From a virus: a stretch of DNA of 21,532 bases. Below the pieces are notes generated by a model. The model was not told the DNA's origin, ran no database searches, and worked only from the letters and a program-made list of their open reading frames with translations. Where the stretch lies: the IMG/VR virus record IMGVR_UViG_3300049846_001913, positions 1 to 21,532 of that record. One strand, given 5' to 3'. Made by a program: the position numbers and the translations under genes. Positions 184 to 16,746 of this stretch are shown here, piece by piece. Position 1 is the first letter of the stretch, and each line of letters starts with the position of its first letter.

Positions 184-599
184 CATCCAACGACTACGCG
201 TTCCTGATTGTTTGGGCCTTCTACGTCTGGCTCATGAGCGTCCTCTACCGCCACATGCACCGCCGGTCCTTATGGCTGGACCTCCTGCGTGCCGCCTGCC
301 GGGCGCGGTATGGGGTTCGCGGCGGGCTGAAGCCACCACTCGCCCCCGCCCACCATCGGATGTCCGTCGAAGGAGACGTCCATGAAGACCCCGAAACGTC
401 TGGGTGGCGGTTTGCTTGGTATGAGTGGCGGTGGCTGTGCTGGAAGTGCGACAGCTATCTCTACGACCTTTCCGGGCTGCCCGACGAGTGGCACGCATGG
501 ATGATTTCCAAGTATGCAAAACCTGACACCAACCCTACAGACAATCCGAACACGCGTAGCCCTTGCGCAGTTAATCCCGACGACCGGAAGAGCAGTTGA
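180..599 (+). CDS. Small Trp-rich membrane protein of unknown function
   Basis: A 139-residue protein that I do not recognise. Residues about 7-25 form one hydrophobic segment rich in aromatic residues and probably cross the membrane. A basic stretch follows, then a Trp-rich region (around residues 76-106) with two cysteines four residues apart (CWKC). The ATG overlaps the stop of the upstream ATPase gene in an ATGA junction, which supports both the start and its being a real gene. The last 28 codons lie inside the start of the methyltransferase gene in another frame and read as low-complexity polar sequence, so the C-terminus may be constrained by the overlapping gene. Function unknown. Confidence 0.5.
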   Translation: MTSNDYAFLIVWAFYVWLMSVLYRHMHRRSLWLDLLRAACRARYGVRGGLKPPLAPAHHRMSVEGDVHEDPETSGWRFAWYEWRWLCWKCDSYLYDLSGLPDEWHAWMISKYAKPDTNPTDNPNTRSPCAVNPDDRKSS

Positions 600-1041
600 G
601 CTCGGGGTCGCCAAGGGCACCTTCAGCGACGCCCTGCTGCGCGCTCGCCCCGGCTTTCGCCTAGTAAGCATCGACTCCTGGGCGGACGACGAGCGGGGGC
701 ATGGCGACGAGGAGTTCGAGCAGGCCAAGAAGCTGCTCGGTGCTCACGGTGCGCGCTCCATCGTGATGCGCAAAACCTTTCGCGACGCCCTGGACTTCTT
801 CCCGCACGGCTCCCTCGACTTCGTCTACATCGACGGATACGCGCATACCGGGCAGGACAACGGTGCGACGCTGCGGGCTTGGTGGCCTAAGGTGCGCGCA
901 GGCGGAATCTTCGCTGGGCACGACTATCACCCGCGCTGGCCTGAGACCGTTGGGCAGGTCGACACCTTCTTCCACAACTTGGGGCTCAAGTTCGGCCTCA
1001 CTCCGGACGACGAGTTCCCGAGCTGGTGGGTTCGTAAGTAA
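514..1041 (+). CDS. Class I SAM-dependent methyltransferase
   Basis: A 175-residue protein with the layout of a Rossmann-fold methyltransferase of the Methyltransf_24 kind. Motif I is VELGVAKG (residues 28-35), the acidic residue at the end of the second strand is D54 in SIDSW, the motif IV-like strand is DFVYIDGYAH (102-111), and GGIFAGHDYHP (130-140) follows the next helix. The substrate cannot be read from sequence: phage members may modify DNA, sugars or small molecules. The ATG at 514 is needed to keep the helix before motif I, which forces an 86-bp overlap with the preceding gene. No good ribosome binding site is visible. It is the last gene before a strong terminator. Confidence 0.8.
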   Translation: MQNLTPTLQTIRTRVALAQLIPTTGRAVELGVAKGTFSDALLRARPGFRLVSIDSWADDERGHGDEEFEQAKKLLGAHGARSIVMRKTFRDALDFFPHGSLDFVYIDGYAHTGQDNGATLRAWWPKVRAGGIFAGHDYHPRWPETVGQVDTFFHNLGLKFGLTPDDEFPSWWVRK

Positions 1042-3417: not shown

Positions 3418-5073
3418 TTAAAAGTTTTCGTAGTCGAGTCCGTCACCACCGTTGTAGAGCTTCGTAATTTCAGCGGGTGCCAGTGCGCGGTTCCAAAGGG
3501 ACATGCTTTCAAAGTAGATTTCACCGGATGCCCAACCATCAGCGTATCCGTTTACGTTGTGTCGTTCGATTATTGGAAAGTCTCCTGTGATGGTCGTGGG
3601 GTCGATAGGAACTCCCGCGTCTTCCATTATGTCGGCTTCCGCTCCATCGACGTATAGCTTCAACTCAGTGCCATCGCAGGTAATGACCGCGAGGTGCCAC
3701 TCTAGGTCGGCATACCCGTTGACGGAGACTGCGCCAACGTAGCCACCGGAGTAGGCGAAGTTAAAAAGGATGGAGCCGTAAGGTCGCCCGCCGCCCGCCG
3801 CGATGAAACCGACCACCGGATGCAGCACGTCCCCCGCATCCCTGAAATCGGCAAACAAGCAGAAATCAGGATAGCCCCCTGTCATGTCATTCTTGGTCTT
3901 AAACCAGAAAGCGTATGATGCGGCCCTTCCAGTAAGTTGTGGGAGCGAGGATACTGCACTGAGATAGGAGCCGTAACTAAAGTCCGCGCAGTTGCCCAAA
4001 ACACCAGAAGCAGAGCCGACGGCATTGTTATCCGATAAGTGTGCCGTCCCGTGAGAGTCGAACCGTGTTCCACTAACTTCATCAAACTTCCAATGGGCTA
4101 GAAGATTCGTCAGCAAAGTCATCTCCGTGATGGCTTCCGTGGGTAAGGAGTAGGCGGGCTCGCTGTCGCCGCTTGCGTTGGTTGCCACGACACCGCATCT
4201 AAGGAACTTACCAATCTGCGCGGTCAGAATTGTGTAGGTGGTGGATGTGGCGTCTTCGATGTCGGACCATCCGGAAGATCCGTCGTCTGAGATTTGCCAT
4301 TGGTGTGCGAAGTCACTTGCTGCGTTGGTCCAAACACCCCGCGAACACGAGACCGTGGAATACTCGGTGGCGGCACCGGTCAGTGCGGGCTTCGTTACGT
4401 TGTCGGGCACACTCGCTCCCGAGTAGATTCGCCAGCCTTGGCCGCCCCCAACGTCAACAAGGGTGATTAGAAGGGCCGGGGTCTTAACGAGCTTAATGAC
4501 TGTATCGATCCCATTCACTTTGTATCCGTCGGCGTCCAGTCGAAGAGGGTTGTCTCCCCAGGAGCCGGAAGAGTCGCTGAACTCGATCTGGGCATTGGAG
4601 CCAGTGGGAGCGGGCAACGCTACAACGAAGTCGGTGTAGGCCGTCGACTCTTGTGCTCCTCCCTCCAGACCAGAGCTTCCTTCCACGTTACCGATGGGGT
4701 CCGCCCCCGTGCCCGGCACTATCAGCTCCGCTGTTACAAGTCCGGAGTCGTTGGCGTTGGTCACGATGTCCGTGAGCGAGCGGGCATCCTCCCCGTAGAG
4801 GTAGAGGTTGTCGCCGTCACTGTAATACCCGCTCTCCCCGTAGCCCTCGTAGAAGGTCAGGCTCACTACTACTGGGGAGTTCCAGGTGAGTCCGGTAAAC
4901 CGGATGCCCGCAACTTCGAAGGTGGGCAGAACTTCTGGAGTAACGACGGCGTTGTTCGTGTCGACCGCGTAGTGTTTGCCGAGCTCGGCCACGAAGCTCG
5001 CGGTTTTCAGTATCGCGTTGTCGAGCCCTACGGCCGACGCTGTCGCCTTGGCTAGTTTGGATAGTGGTGTCAT
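3418..5073 (-). CDS. Tail fibre / receptor-binding protein with Ig-like and LamG domains
   Basis: A 551-residue protein. Residues 1-220 are an unrecognised N-terminal, mostly beta, region that probably attaches to the tail tip. Residues about 224-315 form an Ig-like repeat of the phage type (GVWTN, HQWQISDDG, STTYTILTAQIGKFLRC, VVATNASGDS). Residues about 321-550 form a LamG/concanavalin-like domain, starting LLAHWKFDEVSGT, with ELKLYVDG near 470-477 and the typical end SLWNRALAPAEITKLYNGG. Such domains bind carbohydrates, so this is the best candidate for host recognition in the window. The ATG at 5073 lies 4 nt after the upstream stop, with GAGGA at a suitable distance inside that gene. An upstream in-frame start at 5133 would overlap the previous gene needlessly. 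Confidence 0.82.
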   Translation of the reverse strand: MTPLSKLAKATASAVGLDNAILKTASFVAELGKHYAVDTNNAVVTPEVLPTFEVAGIRFTGLTWNSPVVVSLTFYEGYGESGYYSDGDNLYLYGEDARSLTDIVTNANDSGLVTAELIVPGTGADPIGNVEGSSGLEGGAQESTAYTDFVVALPAPTGSNAQIEFSDSSGSWGDNPLRLDADGYKVNGIDTVIKLVKTPALLITLVDVGGGQGWRIYSGASVPDNVTKPALTGAATEYSTVSCSRGVWTNAASDFAHQWQISDDGSSGWSDIEDATSTTYTILTAQIGKFLRCGVVATNASGDSEPAYSLPTEAITEMTLLTNLLAHWKFDEVSGTRFDSHGTAHLSDNNAVGSASGVLGNCADFSYGSYLSAVSSLPQLTGRAASYAFWFKTKNDMTGGYPDFCLFADFRDAGDVLHPVVGFIAAGGGRPYGSILFNFAYSGGYVGAVSVNGYADLEWHLAVITCDGTELKLYVDGAEADIMEDAGVPIDPTTITGDFPIIERHNVNGYADGWASGEIYFESMSLWNRALAPAEITKLYNGGDGLDYENF

Positions 5074-5077
5074 GAGA

Positions 5078-5995
5078 TTAATCCTCGGATTCAGTATAGG
5101 AGCCGGTGACTCCGGTGAGGCACCAACCGCCACCCATATGACGGAAGGTTAAAAGGAAGCAGCGGTAGGGCTCAACGGTCACAGGCATCGTCGCCGCCTG
5201 CGCATCGGTGAGCCGGATGTTGGAGAGGTCCATCAGGTGAGCGCCACTGGACCAGTTGATTTCCAACTCTAAGATGTCCCCCTTCTCGCCGCCGACGATG
5301 CCCGAGGGAGTCCAGTCGCCGTTGATGTAGCCATACTGATACGGGCCGTTGGCGTAGTCCAGCCCGACGTCCTCACCGAGGGAGTTCAGCCAGTAGGTCT
5401 CCCGACTTATGCGGGCGGCGGGGAACCACAGGGCGTCGTTGGCGATGAACTTCGCCCACAGGTTTGCGAACGTCAGCTTAATCCAGCTGAGCCCGTCGTT
5501 TGCCCCAGCAAGCACGGTGTCGGCGGTTGGGAGGATGGGGTATGGGGGAGCCGCTTCCGTTGGCGGGCCTTCGCCGTTTTGAAGGAGGTCGTTGGAGACC
5601 AAAGCCTTCAGTGTCGGGGTTGAGCGGACCCCGGGCATCTTCCACGAGAACTCAGCAAGGAGCGAGACGCTTGCCTTTGTCGCCGGAGTGAACAGGGCGT
5701 TGAGCTCAACCGTGTTGAAGCTCGGTGTCGCGACATACACGAAATCGTTCGGGTCCTCGGTCCCTCCTTCGGGCTCCTCCCAGACGTCTGTGAACACAAC
5801 TGCGGGCGAACCGAACGCAGGCTTGATACCGAAGATGAGCTCGTGCCCTTCGGGGAGAAGCTCCGGAGTCCCGTTACGGACGAACAGCACACGCAGCTCG
5901 GCGTCGTCGCGTCGCTTGAACGTGAGCTGCGACACCTTGGTGGCGCGCTCCGTGCTGGTAACCTCGAGCGTATCCAGATTGATGGTTAGGTTCAT
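5078..5995 (-). CDS. Tail-tip or fibre-base protein
   Basis: A 305-residue protein. The N-terminal third (KVSQLTFKRRDDAELRVLFV, then a Gly/Phe-rich strand around residues 55-70) resembles the N-terminal beta domain of BppU-like baseplate or fibre-base proteins, which often read as a short basic strand followed by a hydrophobic strand and a strand naming acceptable input. The middle has a Pro-rich hinge (about 142-150), and the C-terminal third is beta-rich and holds aromatic residues. The gene precedes the LamG fibre and probably links it to the tail tip. The ATG is preceded by GGAG, but too close to act as a normal binding site. Family assignment is by eye. Confidence 0.6.
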   Translation of the reverse strand: MNLTINLDTLEVTSTERATKVSQLTFKRRDDAELRVLFVRNGTPELLPEGHELIFGIKPAFGSPAVVFTDVWEEPEGGTEDPNDFVYVATPSFNTVELNALFTPATKASVSLLAEFSWKMPGVRSTPTLKALVSNDLLQNGEGPPTEAAPPYPILPTADTVLAGANDGLSWIKLTFANLWAKFIANDALWFPAARISRETYWLNSLGEDVGLDYANGPYQYGYINGDWTPSGIVGGEKGDILELEINWSSGAHLMDLSNIRLTDAQAATMPVTVEPYRCFLLTFRHMGGGWCLTGVTGSYTESED

Positions 5996-9636: not shown

Positions 9637-11745
9637 TTACGCGGTGGTGCCGGAGGGGGAGTTGGCCATCCGGCGAATGAGTTCTCGGACCTCCACCAGG
9701 ATTTCGACGTGTCGGCGCTGGAGGTCCAGCGACTCGCGCCCACCAACGTCCAAACCGGTCCGGCTGAAGTTGGTGCGCCCGTTGTCTTCGCCAGCACCCA
9801 GCGCGGAGTCCAGCGACGTCTTCAACGGATTGGTGTAGGAGGAGGGGGTCGGTGCACGCAGACTGCCGAAGAAGTCGGTGAGCTCCTTGTTGATGGCGTC
9901 GGTCAGCGTGTCGGCGACCACAGGAGCGGCCTTTACAACCTGCTTGGCCATTGGGCGAGTCCAGTCCATCAGGCCCAGGCCCTTGTCGATGCCGCCCCAG
10001 ATTCCTTCCCAGATTTGCCGGTTGGCCTTGGAGTAGGCGTCCTCTTCGTATCCGGCATGTCCGAGCATACTACCGGCAAGGGCGTCGTTCGCTTTGAAGC
10101 GACCCTCGATGAAGGTCATCATCTTGTTGACCCCTGTGTTCTCGGCGTTCACCCCGCCACCGTTGAGGTAGTCCTGACGCTCCTTCTCCAACTTGGCGAG
10201 CTCAGCGCGGCTCTGCTCAATGCTCTTGCGCAGACCTGCAAACGCATCCTCGGAGTGGAACCCCTTCTGGAACAGGTTGTGGACCTCCCAGAGCTTCATC
10301 TGGAACTCTTGCAGCGACAGCGTAATCTTGGTGGCACTGCGGTAGAAGAAGCTCGTGAACGCACGCCAGCCCGCAATCACTCCGTTCACAACCATGCCGA
10401 CCACGTAGCCGATGCCTAGGAACGCTGTCTCCACCGTCGCAATAACCAGACGAATCGCCCCAAACGCTGTGACCATGATGCTCTGCCCAACCGCCATCAC
10501 AAGGCCCCAGCCCTTAATGAGCATGACGCTGACGTTGTAGACGCTGGCAAACGCGGTATACACGACGCTGGCGATGGAGTCCATGGCGTCGCGGAACCCC
10601 TCGCTATCCGCCGAGGCGGCCTTGAACGCGGTGTTCATGTCGCGGATGGCGGGTGCCAGCGCGGCTCCAATCGTAATCGAGAGCTCGGTGATGTTGTTCT
10701 TGAACACCTGGAACTGGTTGACGAGGGACTGCATCTGCTTGTCCGCGACCTCCTTCGTAGCACCACCAGCCGTGCGCAGACGCTGCTCGTAGGCGCGGAG
10801 CTTCTCGCCCTGGCCCATGAACAAGAGGGTGCCCTGCAGAACCATCTCGTTCAGACCGAGCTGCTCGAACTTGGCTGCGCGCTGGGCGTCCGTCATGGGG
10901 CCGAACTTCGACGTGAGCATGTCGACGATGTCTGCCGTGGACTTCAGCGCACCCGTCACGTCGTAGAGCGCGAGGGACTCTGCCTTCCACTCCTTGCTGT
11001 TCTTGACGGAGGATTGCTGGAGCTGGGCAAGGAACGACGAATAGATTTCACCCGCTTGCTGGGCCTTCTTACCTTGGTCTGCCAGCACCATCAAGGCGGC
11101 GACGCCCTCCTCGACATCCTTCTTGTAGGAGCGCATCGCGGCGGCGGTCTTAGTGGTCAGCGAGGTGGCGAACTGCTCCTGCGACGCGTTGGCTACGTTT
11201 GCAGCCGTGGAGAGAACGTCGGACACGCGTTGCATGTTCGTCATGTATTGCGTGGCGTCCTTGGAGGCCAAGCCCAGGGCGCTCACGTTGTCCGCGAGGA
11301 GCTCTGTTGCTTGCGCAAGGTCGAACGCACCGGCAACGGCGAAGTCGTTCACCACGGGGAGCGCCTTGATAGAGGCCTCTGCGTCCAAACCGGCAGAGGC
11401 CAGGAAGTAGTAGGCCTCTGCCAGCTTGTCCGCGGACGTCACACCGTTCACCGCCATGGACCGGACGTTCGCCTCCATGCGGGCCTTCATGTCGTCCGAC
11501 ACGTTGCCCATGATGGCCAAGCTCTTGGTCATCGAGTCCTCCAGCTTGGCGTATTCGCGCACGCCCACCACCCCTACAGTGGCAAAGGCCGCCACGACGG
11601 CGGCTCCTGCCACGGCGGCGGCGGCGGAGATGCTGGCCAAGCTGGCCTTCGCCCCGGCCTCGGCTGCGTTGAACTCAGCCTTCATGCGGGAGGCGTCGGC
11701 GCTGAGCCGCACCATCAGGTCTCCAACTACTCCGAGGGATGTCAT
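9637..11745 (-). CDS. Tape measure protein
   Basis: A 702-residue protein, the second-longest gene product here. Residues about 14-60 are an Ala-rich helix followed by a hydrophobic segment (AAAVAGAAVVAAFATVGVVG). Residues about 65-330 match the TP901-type tape measure core: repeated ASAGLD, SADKLAEAYYFL and ALGLASKDATQY-like helices. More hydrophobic helices lie around 440-500, as expected for a protein that reaches the host membrane, then a coiled region (EQSRAELAKLEKERQDYL). It sets tail length and is threaded inside the tail tube. At about 0.15 nm per residue the tail would be near 105 nm. The ATG at 11745 overlaps the T frame stop (ATGA). A start further up at 11811 only adds residues overlapping T. 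Confidence 0.93.
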   Translation of the reverse strand: MTSLGVVGDLMVRLSADASRMKAEFNAAEAGAKASLASISAAAAVAGAAVVAAFATVGVVGVREYAKLEDSMTKSLAIMGNVSDDMKARMEANVRSMAVNGVTSADKLAEAYYFLASAGLDAEASIKALPVVNDFAVAGAFDLAQATELLADNVSALGLASKDATQYMTNMQRVSDVLSTAANVANASQEQFATSLTTKTAAAMRSYKKDVEEGVAALMVLADQGKKAQQAGEIYSSFLAQLQQSSVKNSKEWKAESLALYDVTGALKSTADIVDMLTSKFGPMTDAQRAAKFEQLGLNEMVLQGTLLFMGQGEKLRAYEQRLRTAGGATKEVADKQMQSLVNQFQVFKNNITELSITIGAALAPAIRDMNTAFKAASADSEGFRDAMDSIASVVYTAFASVYNVSVMLIKGWGLVMAVGQSIMVTAFGAIRLVIATVETAFLGIGYVVGMVVNGVIAGWRAFTSFFYRSATKITLSLQEFQMKLWEVHNLFQKGFHSEDAFAGLRKSIEQSRAELAKLEKERQDYLNGGGVNAENTGVNKMMTFIEGRFKANDALAGSMLGHAGYEEDAYSKANRQIWEGIWGGIDKGLGLMDWTRPMAKQVVKAAPVVADTLTDAINKELTDFFGSLRAPTPSSYTNPLKTSLDSALGAGEDNGRTNFSRTGLDVGGRESLDLQRRHVEILVEVRELIRRMANSPSGTTA

Positions 11746-12074
11746 TGTGTTTTGGGCTTCTTGGGTTTGGGAGGCTTGCGCGGTTTGGTCCCCATTACGG
11801 CACCGAGCCACTTCGCCTTACTGGACTCGACTCGATTCTTGAGGTCCTCCTCCGATAGCTTGCGCGGCTTGCGGGTCTGGAACTTGATGAGGAAGTCCGA
11901 GTCCTTGATTCGGCTGGGGTTCTTGACCCTGGACCTGCACACCTCCGCAGCAATCTGAGCCAGGAAGTAGTCCTCGCGATGGAACTGGTTGGACTCGATT
12001 GCCTCGAAGGCCTGCCACTCCAGGAACTCTGTGCTCGTTACGCATTCGAGGGTTTCTTGGACTGTCCGGCCCAA
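11742..12074 (-). CDS. gpT-like frame of the tail chaperone (C-terminal part of the fusion)
   Basis: This open frame alone gives 110 residues from a TTG at 12074. The TTG lies inside the stimulatory stem and has no ribosome binding site, so independent initiation is unlikely; the fusion entry is preferred. The sequence has the gpT-type core (TSTEFLEWQAFEAIESNQFHR) and a very basic Lys/Pro tail (KPRKPPKPKKPK). Its stop overlaps the tape measure ATG, fitting the chaperone's direct action on the tape measure protein. Confidence 0.6.
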   Translation of the reverse strand: MGRTVQETLECVTSTEFLEWQAFEAIESNQFHREDYFLAQIAAEVCRSRVKNPSRIKDSDFLIKFQTRKPRKLSEEDLKNRVESSKAKWLGAVMGTKPRKPPKPKKPKTQ

Positions 12075-12499
12075 GCGACTGGCAAGGCGGAACCACGCCA
12101 GTCGCTCGCCGGTCAGGCGTTTTTTAAGGACTCCTCCGTCTTCGCCTGCTCATCCCCGAGCCCGTTGATGGACTGGGCCAGTGTGAAGATCTCCTGCACG
12201 ACCCCGCCCGGCCATTCGGCAATGGTGGCGGAGGGAATGCGGGTCTCCGTTCCGTCCACAGCGCGGGTGACGAGGCAAAGCTCCAGGAGCTTCGACTGCA
12301 TACCAGCCGTGGACAAGAGCTTGCCGGTGGGCTTGCCGTCCTTGTCGAACTCCATGCGATTGCGCATGTCGTCCATGTAGGATTCGCGGAGGGTGCCGGT
12401 CATCTCGTAGACCCGAAGTGCCTGTTCGATACCATCGGCTCCCTCGACTTGGATGTCCTCGAACTTGCGGATGAGTTTGAATTTCTTGATAGGCTTCAT
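11742..12499 (-). CDS. Tail assembly chaperone G-T fusion made by -1 frameshift
   Basis: If ribosomes slip back by one on the heptamer A AAA AAC at 12119-12125, translation of G joins the T frame: 127 residues of G plus 125 residues, total 252. The joined sequence continues sensibly as RLTGERLAWFRLASRLGRTV, then QETLE and STEFLEWQAFEAIE, which is the usual start and core of the gpT-type chaperone domain in lambda-like phages. Without the shift, that leading part would not be translated at all. In this family G and G-T coat the tape measure and recruit tail tube protein, with the fusion made at a low fixed rate. A 10-bp stem-loop sits 12 nt downstream as probable stimulator. Confidence 0.85.
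12074..12125 (-). promoter_or_regulatory. Programmed -1 frameshift site: slippery heptamer and stem-loop
   Basis: On the minus strand, codons TTA AAA AAC of G form the heptamer A AAA AAC (12119-12125) two codons before the TGA. A perfect 10-bp stem follows, AGCGACTGGC and GCCAGTCGCT (12097-12106 and 12074-12083) with a 13-nt loop, 12 nt after the heptamer. Slippage enters exactly the frame that encodes the T domain. Confidence 0.88.
12113..12499 (-). CDS. Tail assembly chaperone G
   Basis: A 128-residue helical protein between the tail tube and the tape measure genes, the usual place of gpG. The N-terminus is basic (MKPIKKFKLIRKFEDI), followed by an acidic alpha region (EGADGIEQALRVYEMTGTLR). 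It ends SLKNA. The last codons hold the slippery heptamer A AAA AAC just before the stop, which is typical of this gene. The ATG lies 35 nt after the tail tube stop without a Shine-Dalgarno sequence. In the family G is made in excess over G-T and is absent from mature virions. Confidence 0.82.
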   Translation of the reverse strand: MKPIKKFKLIRKFEDIQVEGADGIEQALRVYEMTGTLRESYMDDMRNRMEFDKDGKPTGKLLSTAGMQSKLLELCLVTRAVDGTETRIPSATIAEWPGGVVQEIFTLAQSINGLGDEQAKTEESLKNA

Positions 12500-14156: not shown

Positions 14157-14536
14157 CAGCAAGACCCTCCAACGAAGAACACGCCTGTCTTCTTCTTGGT
14201 TGCCGTCTCCGGCATCCGGTTCACCGATGCGAGCCCTCCCTTAGTGTCGAGCATCATGGCCTGCTGACCGTAAGGGGTCTGCGTGAGGTAGAGCCCAACG
14301 GAGTTCATGTAAGAGGCGCTCACGCCACCGGCAGACTCGCTCGAGACGCGTGGGTCGCGGATGGCGTAGAAGTGAGCGGCGAGCCAAGTCTCAATCTGCT
14401 CAAGCCGGACGTCGCTGTAACCAATCGAGCCGCAAAGCTCTGTGACGAGTTCGTTGGCGGCGGCGATGAAGGGGGCGAGCGCAATGGTCGGGTCGACCTC
14501 AATTACGGCCGACACTTTGGCGTCGTTGGTTCTCAT
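14156..14536 (-). CDS. Head-tail connector protein (DUF4054-like)
   Basis: A 126-residue mostly helical protein. The first helices hold IALAPFIAAANELVTELC and a short DVRLEQIETWLAAHFYAIRD stretch. The C-terminal half has the marks YLTQTPYGQQAMMLDTKGGL, typical of DUF4054-like gp6-type connectors. These sit below the portal and start the neck. It starts in an ATGA overlap with the DUF115-like gene and ends in TGATG with the closure gene, so the neck genes are probably translationally coupled. Confidence 0.75.
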   Translation of the reverse strand: MRTNDAKVSAVIEVDPTIALAPFIAAANELVTELCGSIGYSDVRLEQIETWLAAHFYAIRDPRVSSESAGGVSASYMNSVGLYLTQTPYGQQAMMLDTKGGLASVNRMPETATKKKTGVFFVGGSC

Positions 14537-15147
14537 AGAAGGATGGAGTCAAGTGGGAGTTGCGGAAACTGTGTCAGGCGCGAGCCTTCCGTGAGGTTAA
14601 TGACCTGACGCCCCGGGAACACGCGGGGGAGGTCTTGGGCTAGGCGGGTGAAGCCCTCGTAGAACCGTGTGTAGACGTCGTCGCTTGGAACGTCGTGAAC
14701 CCTGTCATGCCAGTTGGGGCGGCGGTCGGCGGGTAGCTGGCAATCGAATCCAAGGAGAAACACGCGCTGGGCTCCCATCAGGAGCGCCAAGTTAATCGCA
14801 CCGCAGCCACTGTTACCTCCGTAACCAAGTGCGTTCAGGTGCAGCCCGAAGTCCTCGCGGGGAACTTGCCGGACCCACTCGTGCTCCCCCGCGCAGGCAA
14901 GCTCAGGGGAGTGAGTGACGACGGGACCTGCAAAACCTTCAAGCTCCAGGCCGTATCGGTCGAACCACGAGATGTCTGAAAAGAAACAGACCTTGCAGAC
15001 TCTCGGACCAAGGGTGAACGCCGTGTTGCACCCGATGGTGTTCTTAGCGTGAAGCCGTGCCCAGTTGAACTCGCGAAGTGAAGGACCGCCCCCAATTATG
15101 AAGGCGTCCTGTCCTTTCCACTTCGGCTCTGGTGTCCAACGGGGCAC
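14533..15147 (-). CDS. DUF115-like (MptE/MAF-like) enzyme
   Basis: A 204-residue protein. A glycine-rich loop (FIIGGGPSLREF, residues 16-27) is followed by a small helix and the segment NTIGCNTAF (about 36-44). Later a hydrophobic strand GAQRVFLLGFDC (about 123-134) closes a Rossmann-like fold. This is the pattern of DUF115 / 6-hydroxymethylpterin pyrophosphokinase MptE-like proteins and the related MAF glycosyltransferases that decorate flagellin. It begins with GTG, 16 nt after the preceding stop. Its substrate is unknown: it may modify a nucleotide sugar or a virion protein. It is a non-structural gene between the capsid and neck genes. Confidence 0.68.
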   Translation of the reverse strand: MPRWTPEPKWKGQDAFIIGGGPSLREFNWARLHAKNTIGCNTAFTLGPRVCKVCFFSDISWFDRYGLELEGFAGPVVTHSPELACAGEHEWVRQVPREDFGLHLNALGYGGNSGCGAINLALLMGAQRVFLLGFDCQLPADRRPNWHDRVHDVPSDDVYTRFYEGFTRLAQDLPRVFPGRQVINLTEGSRLTQFPQLPLDSILL

Positions 15148-15675: not shown

Positions 15676-16746
15676 TCAGGCGGTGTTGCCGTGGACGATG
15701 CCGGTCTTGCCGGTGATGTCACCGCGGAGTTGCGGGACAAGGATGGCCATGACCTTGAAGTTGATCTGCATACCGCCCTGCGATTCCCACTGAACCGTCG
15801 AGACGTCCATGCCGATAACCTCGCGGATGACATCCGCGGTCCACTGCACGAGCACCATCTGGTAGCCCGAGAGGTAGTCGAGCGACTCGACACCGTTGAT
15901 GCCCTGAATCTTGGCGATGCGCTCGCGCAGGGTGTTGTCGCCCTTGGCGTCCGAGTAGTCGGCGTCCAGGTAGGCGTCCCACGCGGTGCCCACGAACAGC
16001 ATCCAAGGACCGTAGTGGAGAGCGTCGATGCTCTTCTGGCGCATGTCCAGAACCTCGAGAACCGTGGTCTTCGGGGTCCAGCCGGTGGAGGCGGGGTTGG
16101 TGAGCACCTTGGTCAGGCGCGAGGGGAAGTTGACGAGGCCATAAATGAGGCCGCCGCCATACTGGAACCCGAGCGTGCCGATGGCGAGCTTCTCGGCCTC
16201 TTCCGCGACGCGGCGAGCGGCGAGCTCAGCGGTCGAGGTGTCGAGGGGAGAGCCGCCCTGGCGGGAGGCCATCACCTGACGGGCGCTGAAGGAGAAGTCC
16301 TTGTGAATCAGCGGGAGGGGCAGGTTGCTGAGCTCGAACACCGGGCGGTCGCCCTCGCTCTTGCGCAGGCCGTCCATGCTGATGGTCGCGCCGGAGATGT
16401 CGCTCTGGGTCTCGGTCTGGAGCACCGTGGACGCCATACCGTTCGGCATGGTGTAGGTGAGGCCACCAGCGCGGAGAGCGCCGACGAGCTTGAGGCGGGG
16501 CTTCGCGGCCGCCACGACGGCACGGTCCAACGTAATCCAGTCGTCCTTGCGGAGAGTGGCCACGGCGTTGGTCGTCGGGATGGCTTGGGGCTCGAACTTG
16601 CCGGTGGCGGGGTTGAGCGAGTTGATGGTGATGTAAGAACGTCCGTCCTTACCGATAAAGGGGCGCAGCGAGCCCGTGTCGAACTGGTTCTGCATGAGGG
16701 TCGCGGCGATGCTGCCCTGCGCCTGACCGTTGAGGATAAAGTCCAT
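15676..16746 (-). CDS. Major capsid protein
   Basis: A 356-residue protein with HK97-fold layout, directly after the decoration gene. The N-terminal arm (about 1-50) is polar and Asn/Gly-rich. Residues about 55-150 have long strands and helices (RKDDWITLDRAVVAAAKPRL). The spine-like helix is TAELAARRVAEEAEKLAIG near 177-195, followed by a Gly-rich stretch and the P-domain-like C-terminus (MQINFKVMAILVPQLRG) near the end. The ATG is preceded by a good AAGGA at 9-nt spacing inside a leader nearly identical to that of the decoration gene. Like other members lacking an N-terminal delta domain, it depends on a separate scaffold, here probably made from the protease gene. Confidence 0.85.
   Translation of the reverse strand: MDFILNGQAQGSIAATLMQNQFDTGSLRPFIGKDGRSYITINSLNPATGKFEPQAIPTTNAVATLRKDDWITLDRAVVAAAKPRLKLVGALRAGGLTYTMPNGMASTVLQTETQSDISGATISMDGLRKSEGDRPVFELSNLPLPLIHKDFSFSARQVMASRQGGSPLDTSTAELAARRVAEEAEKLAIGTLGFQYGGGLIYGLVNFPSRLTKVLTNPASTGWTPKTTVLEVLDMRQKSIDALHYGPWMLFVGTAWDAYLDADYSDAKGDNTLRERIAKIQGINGVESLDYLSGYQMVLVQWTADVIREVIGMDVSTVQWESQGGMQINFKVMAILVPQLRGDITGKTGIVHGNTA

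Follow-up and report, generated by a model that had tools for sequence, protein, structure and literature searches.

How the T domain of a tail assembly chaperone can be expressed from a reading frame that offers no start codon of its own is the question raised by two overlapping genes in the window, the whole 21,532-nt (21.5-kb) stretch of a GC-rich viral genome analyzed here (IMG/VR virus record IMGVR_UViG_3300049846_001913). The original prediction, made from this single sequence, proposed a programmed -1 frameshift linking the tail chaperones G and T. Analysis of the window and its viral relatives indicates that the site, which belongs to an uncultured tailed phage, almost certainly directs programmed -1 ribosomal frameshifting like that of lambda G/GT. 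The frameshift feature lies entirely on the minus strand, and the locus consists of the following parts:

12113-12499, minus strand: gene G, predicted tail assembly chaperone, an ORF of 128 aa from ATG to TGA
12131-12137, minus strand: GGAGGAG, resembling a Shine-Dalgarno sequence and lying 5 nt ahead of the heptamer, tentatively a possible extra stimulator
12119-12125, minus strand: A AAA AAC, the slippery heptamer, which follows the X XXY YYZ pattern in the frame of G
12113-12118, minus strand: 6-nt spacer from the heptamer to the full stem
12113-12115, minus strand: stop codon TGA of G, ending the unshifted product one sense codon past the heptamer
12066-12112, minus strand: putative stimulatory stem-loop of 17 bp with a 2-nt bulge, containing a 10-bp core
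11742-12119, minus strand: the 125-aa T domain, read in the -1 frame (PF06223, phrog_337)
9637-11745, minus strand: predicted tape measure protein, which matches PF10145 (E 6e-23) as well as several tape measure families of PHROG

The heptamer announced near the stop of G is present at 12125-12119, in phase, with TGA at 12115-12113, the 3' end of the gene reading TTA AAA AAC GCC TGA. Under the codon usage of this genome, in which TTA represents 3 of 318 leucine codons and AAA 23 of 171 lysine codons, the spelling of Leu-Lys-Asn as nnA AAA AAC has a probability of about 0.009, while any in-phase X XXY YY heptamer within the last 12 codons of G, the protein being given, has one of about 0.011. 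A slip of one base back enters the gpT frame, as had been proposed: the -1 frame (12119-11742) encodes 125 aa matching PF06223 (Phage_tail_T, Minor tail protein T; E 3.6e-10, above the cut-off) and phrog_337 (E 9.8e-17), and the predicted fusion of 252 residues agrees with the sum of 127 and 125 aa. Within the window the T frame contains no ATG, GTG or TTG ahead of the TTG at 12074, which sits inside the conserved domain, and at the G stop it offers only a CTG (12116-12114). Annotation will probably overlook T or give it a wrong start, because it has no start codon.

The identity of the upstream product was approached through its homologues and its modelled fold. A Pfam search with the G protein of the window returned no match, and the same sequence alone reached phrog_344 only below threshold (E 0.037); among the G homologues, 33 of 44 hit phrog_344 (tail assembly chaperone) and four hit the lambda protein G family PF06894. 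In Foldseek the AlphaFold model of G (pLDDT 91) was closest to 2OB9, the tail assembly chaperone of HK97 (probability 0.99, E 0.02), whereas a sequence profile of G compared with the PDB yielded nothing meaningful. A second structural comparison ranked 3KLU YqbN (Z 7.5), 2OB9 (Z 7.4, rmsd 5.7 over 95 residues), 5IR0 (Z 6.2) and 3FGX (Z 5.0) above all others (Z of at most 3.4), and the named best matches among predicted viral structures were mostly tail assembly chaperones. Homologue profiles and modelled fold thus point to G as a tail assembly chaperone.

The gene order places G and T, in that sequence, after a tail terminator and a tube candidate and before the tape measure gene, whose ATG starts at 11745 and overlaps the stop of T as ATGA. 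Overall, the locus combines an in-phase heptamer at the G/T overlap, a T frame at -1 without its own start, a recognizable T domain and a tape measure gene immediately next, as in lambda-type sites, together with a downstream RNA structure of the stimulatory type, which is accessory and not universal in such systems.

Several other genes of the window were assigned in passing. A major capsid candidate (15676-16746, minus strand) matches DUF6260 (E 1e-19) and the encapsulin family PF04454 (E 1e-10), and a glycan-related protein encoded in the head-tail operon (14533-15147, minus strand) matches phrog_4603, alpha-2,3-sialyltransferase (E 1.6e-28), with a weak MptE-like match. Downstream of the tail genes, a virion protein that carries a lectin domain of the concanavalin A-like type (Laminin_G_3; 3418-5133, minus strand) is possibly a host-binding part. 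Finally, a methyltransferase-domain gene (514-1041, plus strand; PF13578, E 2e-13) lies on the strand opposite to the structural genes.

Viral contigs searched with T and with an alignment of T yielded 74 viral relatives, while a search of viral contigs with the single G sequence and a search of genome contigs with the T alignment recovered none. After omission of one truncated locus and removal of near-copies, 57 non-redundant loci were compared, namely the window and 56 viral relatives, nearly all of them uncultured. The comparison of the heptamer across related phages that had been suggested at the outset gave a clear result: an in-phase X XXY YYZ heptamer occupies the equivalent position of the junction in 55 of the 57 loci, in the forms AAAAAAC (40), GGGAAAC (8), AAAAAAA (4), AAAAAAG (2) and CCCAAAA (1), with AAC as the A-site codon in 48 of the 55 and with the stop separated from the heptamer by precisely one codon in most relatives. 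The search motif TGERLAW itself is present in only six of the 57 loci, which shows that this result is not a product of the way in which the loci were found. The codon preceding the heptamer encodes any of nine amino acids (Ala, Glu, Ser, Pro, Gly, Val, Leu, Ile and Lys) and ends in A in all 40 loci with AAAAAAC, compared with 23% of codons in the rest of G. On the tree of T proteins, GGGAAAC has at least four separate origins on well-supported branches, and up to eight, always with the complete GGG triplet. One of the relatives is Streptomyces phage PHTowN (2490-2500), whose annotation shows two distinct tail chaperone genes, with an in-phase GGGAAAC between them, and no frameshift.

The perfect 10-bp stem AGCGACTGGC/GCCAGTCGCT was located as described, with 12106-12097 pairing with 12083-12074, 12 nt past the heptamer. 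The spacer itself needs correction: taken at first as 12 nt and longer than usual, it is an ordinary 6 nt, since the 10-bp stem is the core of a longer, bulged stem of 17 bp, in which the minimum-energy fold pairs 12112-12096 with 12084-12073 and 12070-12066 around a 2-nt bulge. This fold of the window has a free energy of -38.4 kcal/mol (z -4.3 against dinucleotide shuffles), compared with -22.7 for synonymous recodings (z -4.2), in which the downstream T codons were replaced by synonymous draws from each gene's own usage. The excess stability extends to the family, with a mean z of -2.18 over the 57 loci (Wilcoxon p 1e-9) against -0.31 in control windows deeper in T, and about 14 of the 57 loci lack a clear excess (z above -1). 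When folds were restricted to begin at least 4 nt after the heptamer, the spacer measured 4-9 nt in 54 of the 57 loci, most commonly 7 nt. A search of positions 11900-12400 against Rfam gave no match.

Comparison of the stem across relatives revealed paired changes as well. At the majority stem register 73.8% of the cells are paired, against 39-55% when the register is slid by 1-3 columns, and the covariation score at this register (0.253) exceeds all 500 shuffles; the number of stem pairs with double changes is no higher than in shuffles. RNAalifold run on all rows yielded no single consensus stem, because the register differs between lineages: the majority pairs at an anchor sum of 42 and the window at 46, the window and L005 being shifted by 4. 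It is the position of a strong hairpin that is conserved, more than any particular stem.

A related phage with its heptamer broken by synonymous changes had been named beforehand as potential counter-evidence; two relatives have indeed lost the heptamer, which is kept in the other 55 loci. Locus L006 (1480-1560) has neither the heptamer nor an excess stem (z +0.6), and carries AAGGA followed by an ATG overlapping the G stop; to judge from these elements, it may have replaced frameshifting by reinitiation of T. In L028 (999-1869) the overlapping T stands at +1 relative to G instead of -1; an ATG occurs at 1474, and G retains CAAAAAC as a remnant. Each exception is a single contig, so that an assembly error is possible; taken at face value, both indicate that the mechanism can be lost.

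L006 illustrates the best surviving alternative, namely that T is a separate protein made by termination-reinitiation at the G stop, at the CTG in the window and at ATG or TTG in some relatives. An ATG overlaps the stop in L002, L003, L006, L043 and L062, and a TTG in L019, L022, L025, L040, L059 and L063, yet nearly all of these loci retain the heptamer, and heptamer and stem are mostly kept regardless of whether a start codon is present. In 42 of the 57 loci, moreover, the T frame contains no ATG, GTG or TTG ahead of the conserved core, and reinitiation leaves both the third-base A before the heptamer and the exchange of AAA for GGG unexplained. We therefore regard it as a very improbable general account of the locus, and ribosomal frameshifting as the preferred one.

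Still less probable is that RNA polymerase, and not the ribosome, slips on the A run and so produces the fusion. The run comprises six A in the window and seven or eight in some relatives, six being short for polymerase slippage, and the GGGAAAC and CCCAAAA relatives obey X XXY YYZ without any long homopolymer. Complete AAA-to-GGG triplets are what re-pairing of the P-site tRNA demands, and they argue against polymerase slippage as well as against simple A-richness, while a stem 4-9 nt downstream is a feature of ribosomal and not of polymerase slippage. Finally, the notion that heptamer and hairpin arose by chance where two genes merely overlap draws on the single AAAAAAC of the window being about the number expected somewhere in 21.5 kb, but is refuted by its position, phase and conservation, by the low probability of an in-phase heptamer in the window alone (about 0.01 given the protein) and by the fold excess over synonymous controls, and its likelihood is negligible.

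According to the ribosomal frameshift model, most ribosomes would translate G through to the TGA and release the 128-aa chaperone. A minority would be held up by the hairpin 6 nt downstream while tRNA-Lys occupies AAA in the P site and tRNA-Asn occupies AAC in the A site, whereupon both tRNAs would re-pair one base back on AAA AAA and the shifted ribosomes proceed in the T frame to give the 252-aa G-T fusion. If lambda is a guide, the G part would bind the tape measure protein and the T part recruit the tail tube protein, in which case the rate of frameshifting would fix the G:GT ratio needed in tail assembly.

The Shine-Dalgarno-like GGAGGAG upstream of the heptamer is only tentatively a part of the signal, because G ends in a Glu-rich tail. 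Across the family, anti-Shine-Dalgarno pairing at a spacing of 5-7 nt is stronger than in synonymous controls (mean -1.2 kcal/mol, p 2e-4), with no excess at other spacings, and in the window alone the difference from the same kind of control is not significant (p 0.12). A crude count had suggested a large enrichment of such motifs (62% vs 14%), which shrank under synonymous controls. A dnaX-type signal consists of a Shine-Dalgarno-like element, a heptamer and a stem, the upstream element of dnaX lying at a spacing of about 10 nt, compared with 5 nt for the candidate element of the window.

A broader reading, which we consider unlikely, is that these phages form a large uncultured group with a three-part signal, composed of a Shine-Dalgarno-like element about 6 nt upstream, a heptamer ending in AAC (weak in E. 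coli and strong in eukaryotes) and a hairpin of fixed position and drifting register, from which lineages such as L006 would have switched to reinitiation of T at an ATGA stop-start. Such a signal, if real, would suggest hosts in which tRNA-Asn renders AAC slippery. Frameshifting of the lambda G/GT type is as such textbook; what began as a guess from a single sequence has become a conserved and testable signal in 55 of 57 viral loci, and its natural variants (AAAAAAC, GGGAAAC, CCCAAAA and the loss in L006) offer material for studying the co-evolution of heptamer and hairpin.

G-T frameshifting is widely conserved among long-tailed phages (PMC5009743), and the programmed -1 frameshift of lambda G/GT is the subject of Levin 1993 and of Xu, Hendrix and Duda 2004 and 2013, as cited in PMC5009743. 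The window resembles lambda in the site preceding the tape measure gene, in the -1 direction, in the logic of a chaperone and an extended chaperone, in a T domain that shares its Pfam family with minor tail protein T and in G homologues some of which match PF06894. It differs in its heptamer, A AAA AAC in the window and G GGA AAG in lambda, as well as in a strong stem at a distance of 6 nt from the heptamer and in a stop that follows the heptamer after one codon.

The initial view that A AAA AAC is less usual in this gene finds no support, because this heptamer is the dominant one in the window's family (40 of 57 loci) and has already been reported in tail chaperone genes (PMC3556154, PMC5313236, PMC5009743). 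In phiCbK-like Caulobacter phages the slippery site of the tail chaperone is AAAAAAC, and in Colossus GGGAAAC (PMC3556154), which are the two commonest forms in the family studied here; the likeness lies in the heptamer, the passage of that paper dealing with the site giving no stem-loop for phiCbK, in contrast to the strong stem of the window. A chaperone frameshift motif is likewise described in the Acinetobacter phages Loki (AAAAAAC) and IME_AB3, where the relevant passage of PMC5313236 predicts frameshifting from the motif alone, whereas in the present case the signal was tested family-wide; AAAAAAC has possibly been reported for Dragolir too (PMC6003738). A point against the frameshift reading is that in E. 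coli, which may not be the host of this phage, A_AAA_AAC is less slippery than A_AAA_AAG (PMC5009743). A parallel in both heptamer and location comes from the haloarchaeal virus HCTV-2, whose host is archaeal and which has A_AAA_AAC at its G-T junction as in the window, its relatives HCTV-1 and HCTV-5 carrying G_GGA_AAC and G_GGA_AAG, respectively (PMC5009743).
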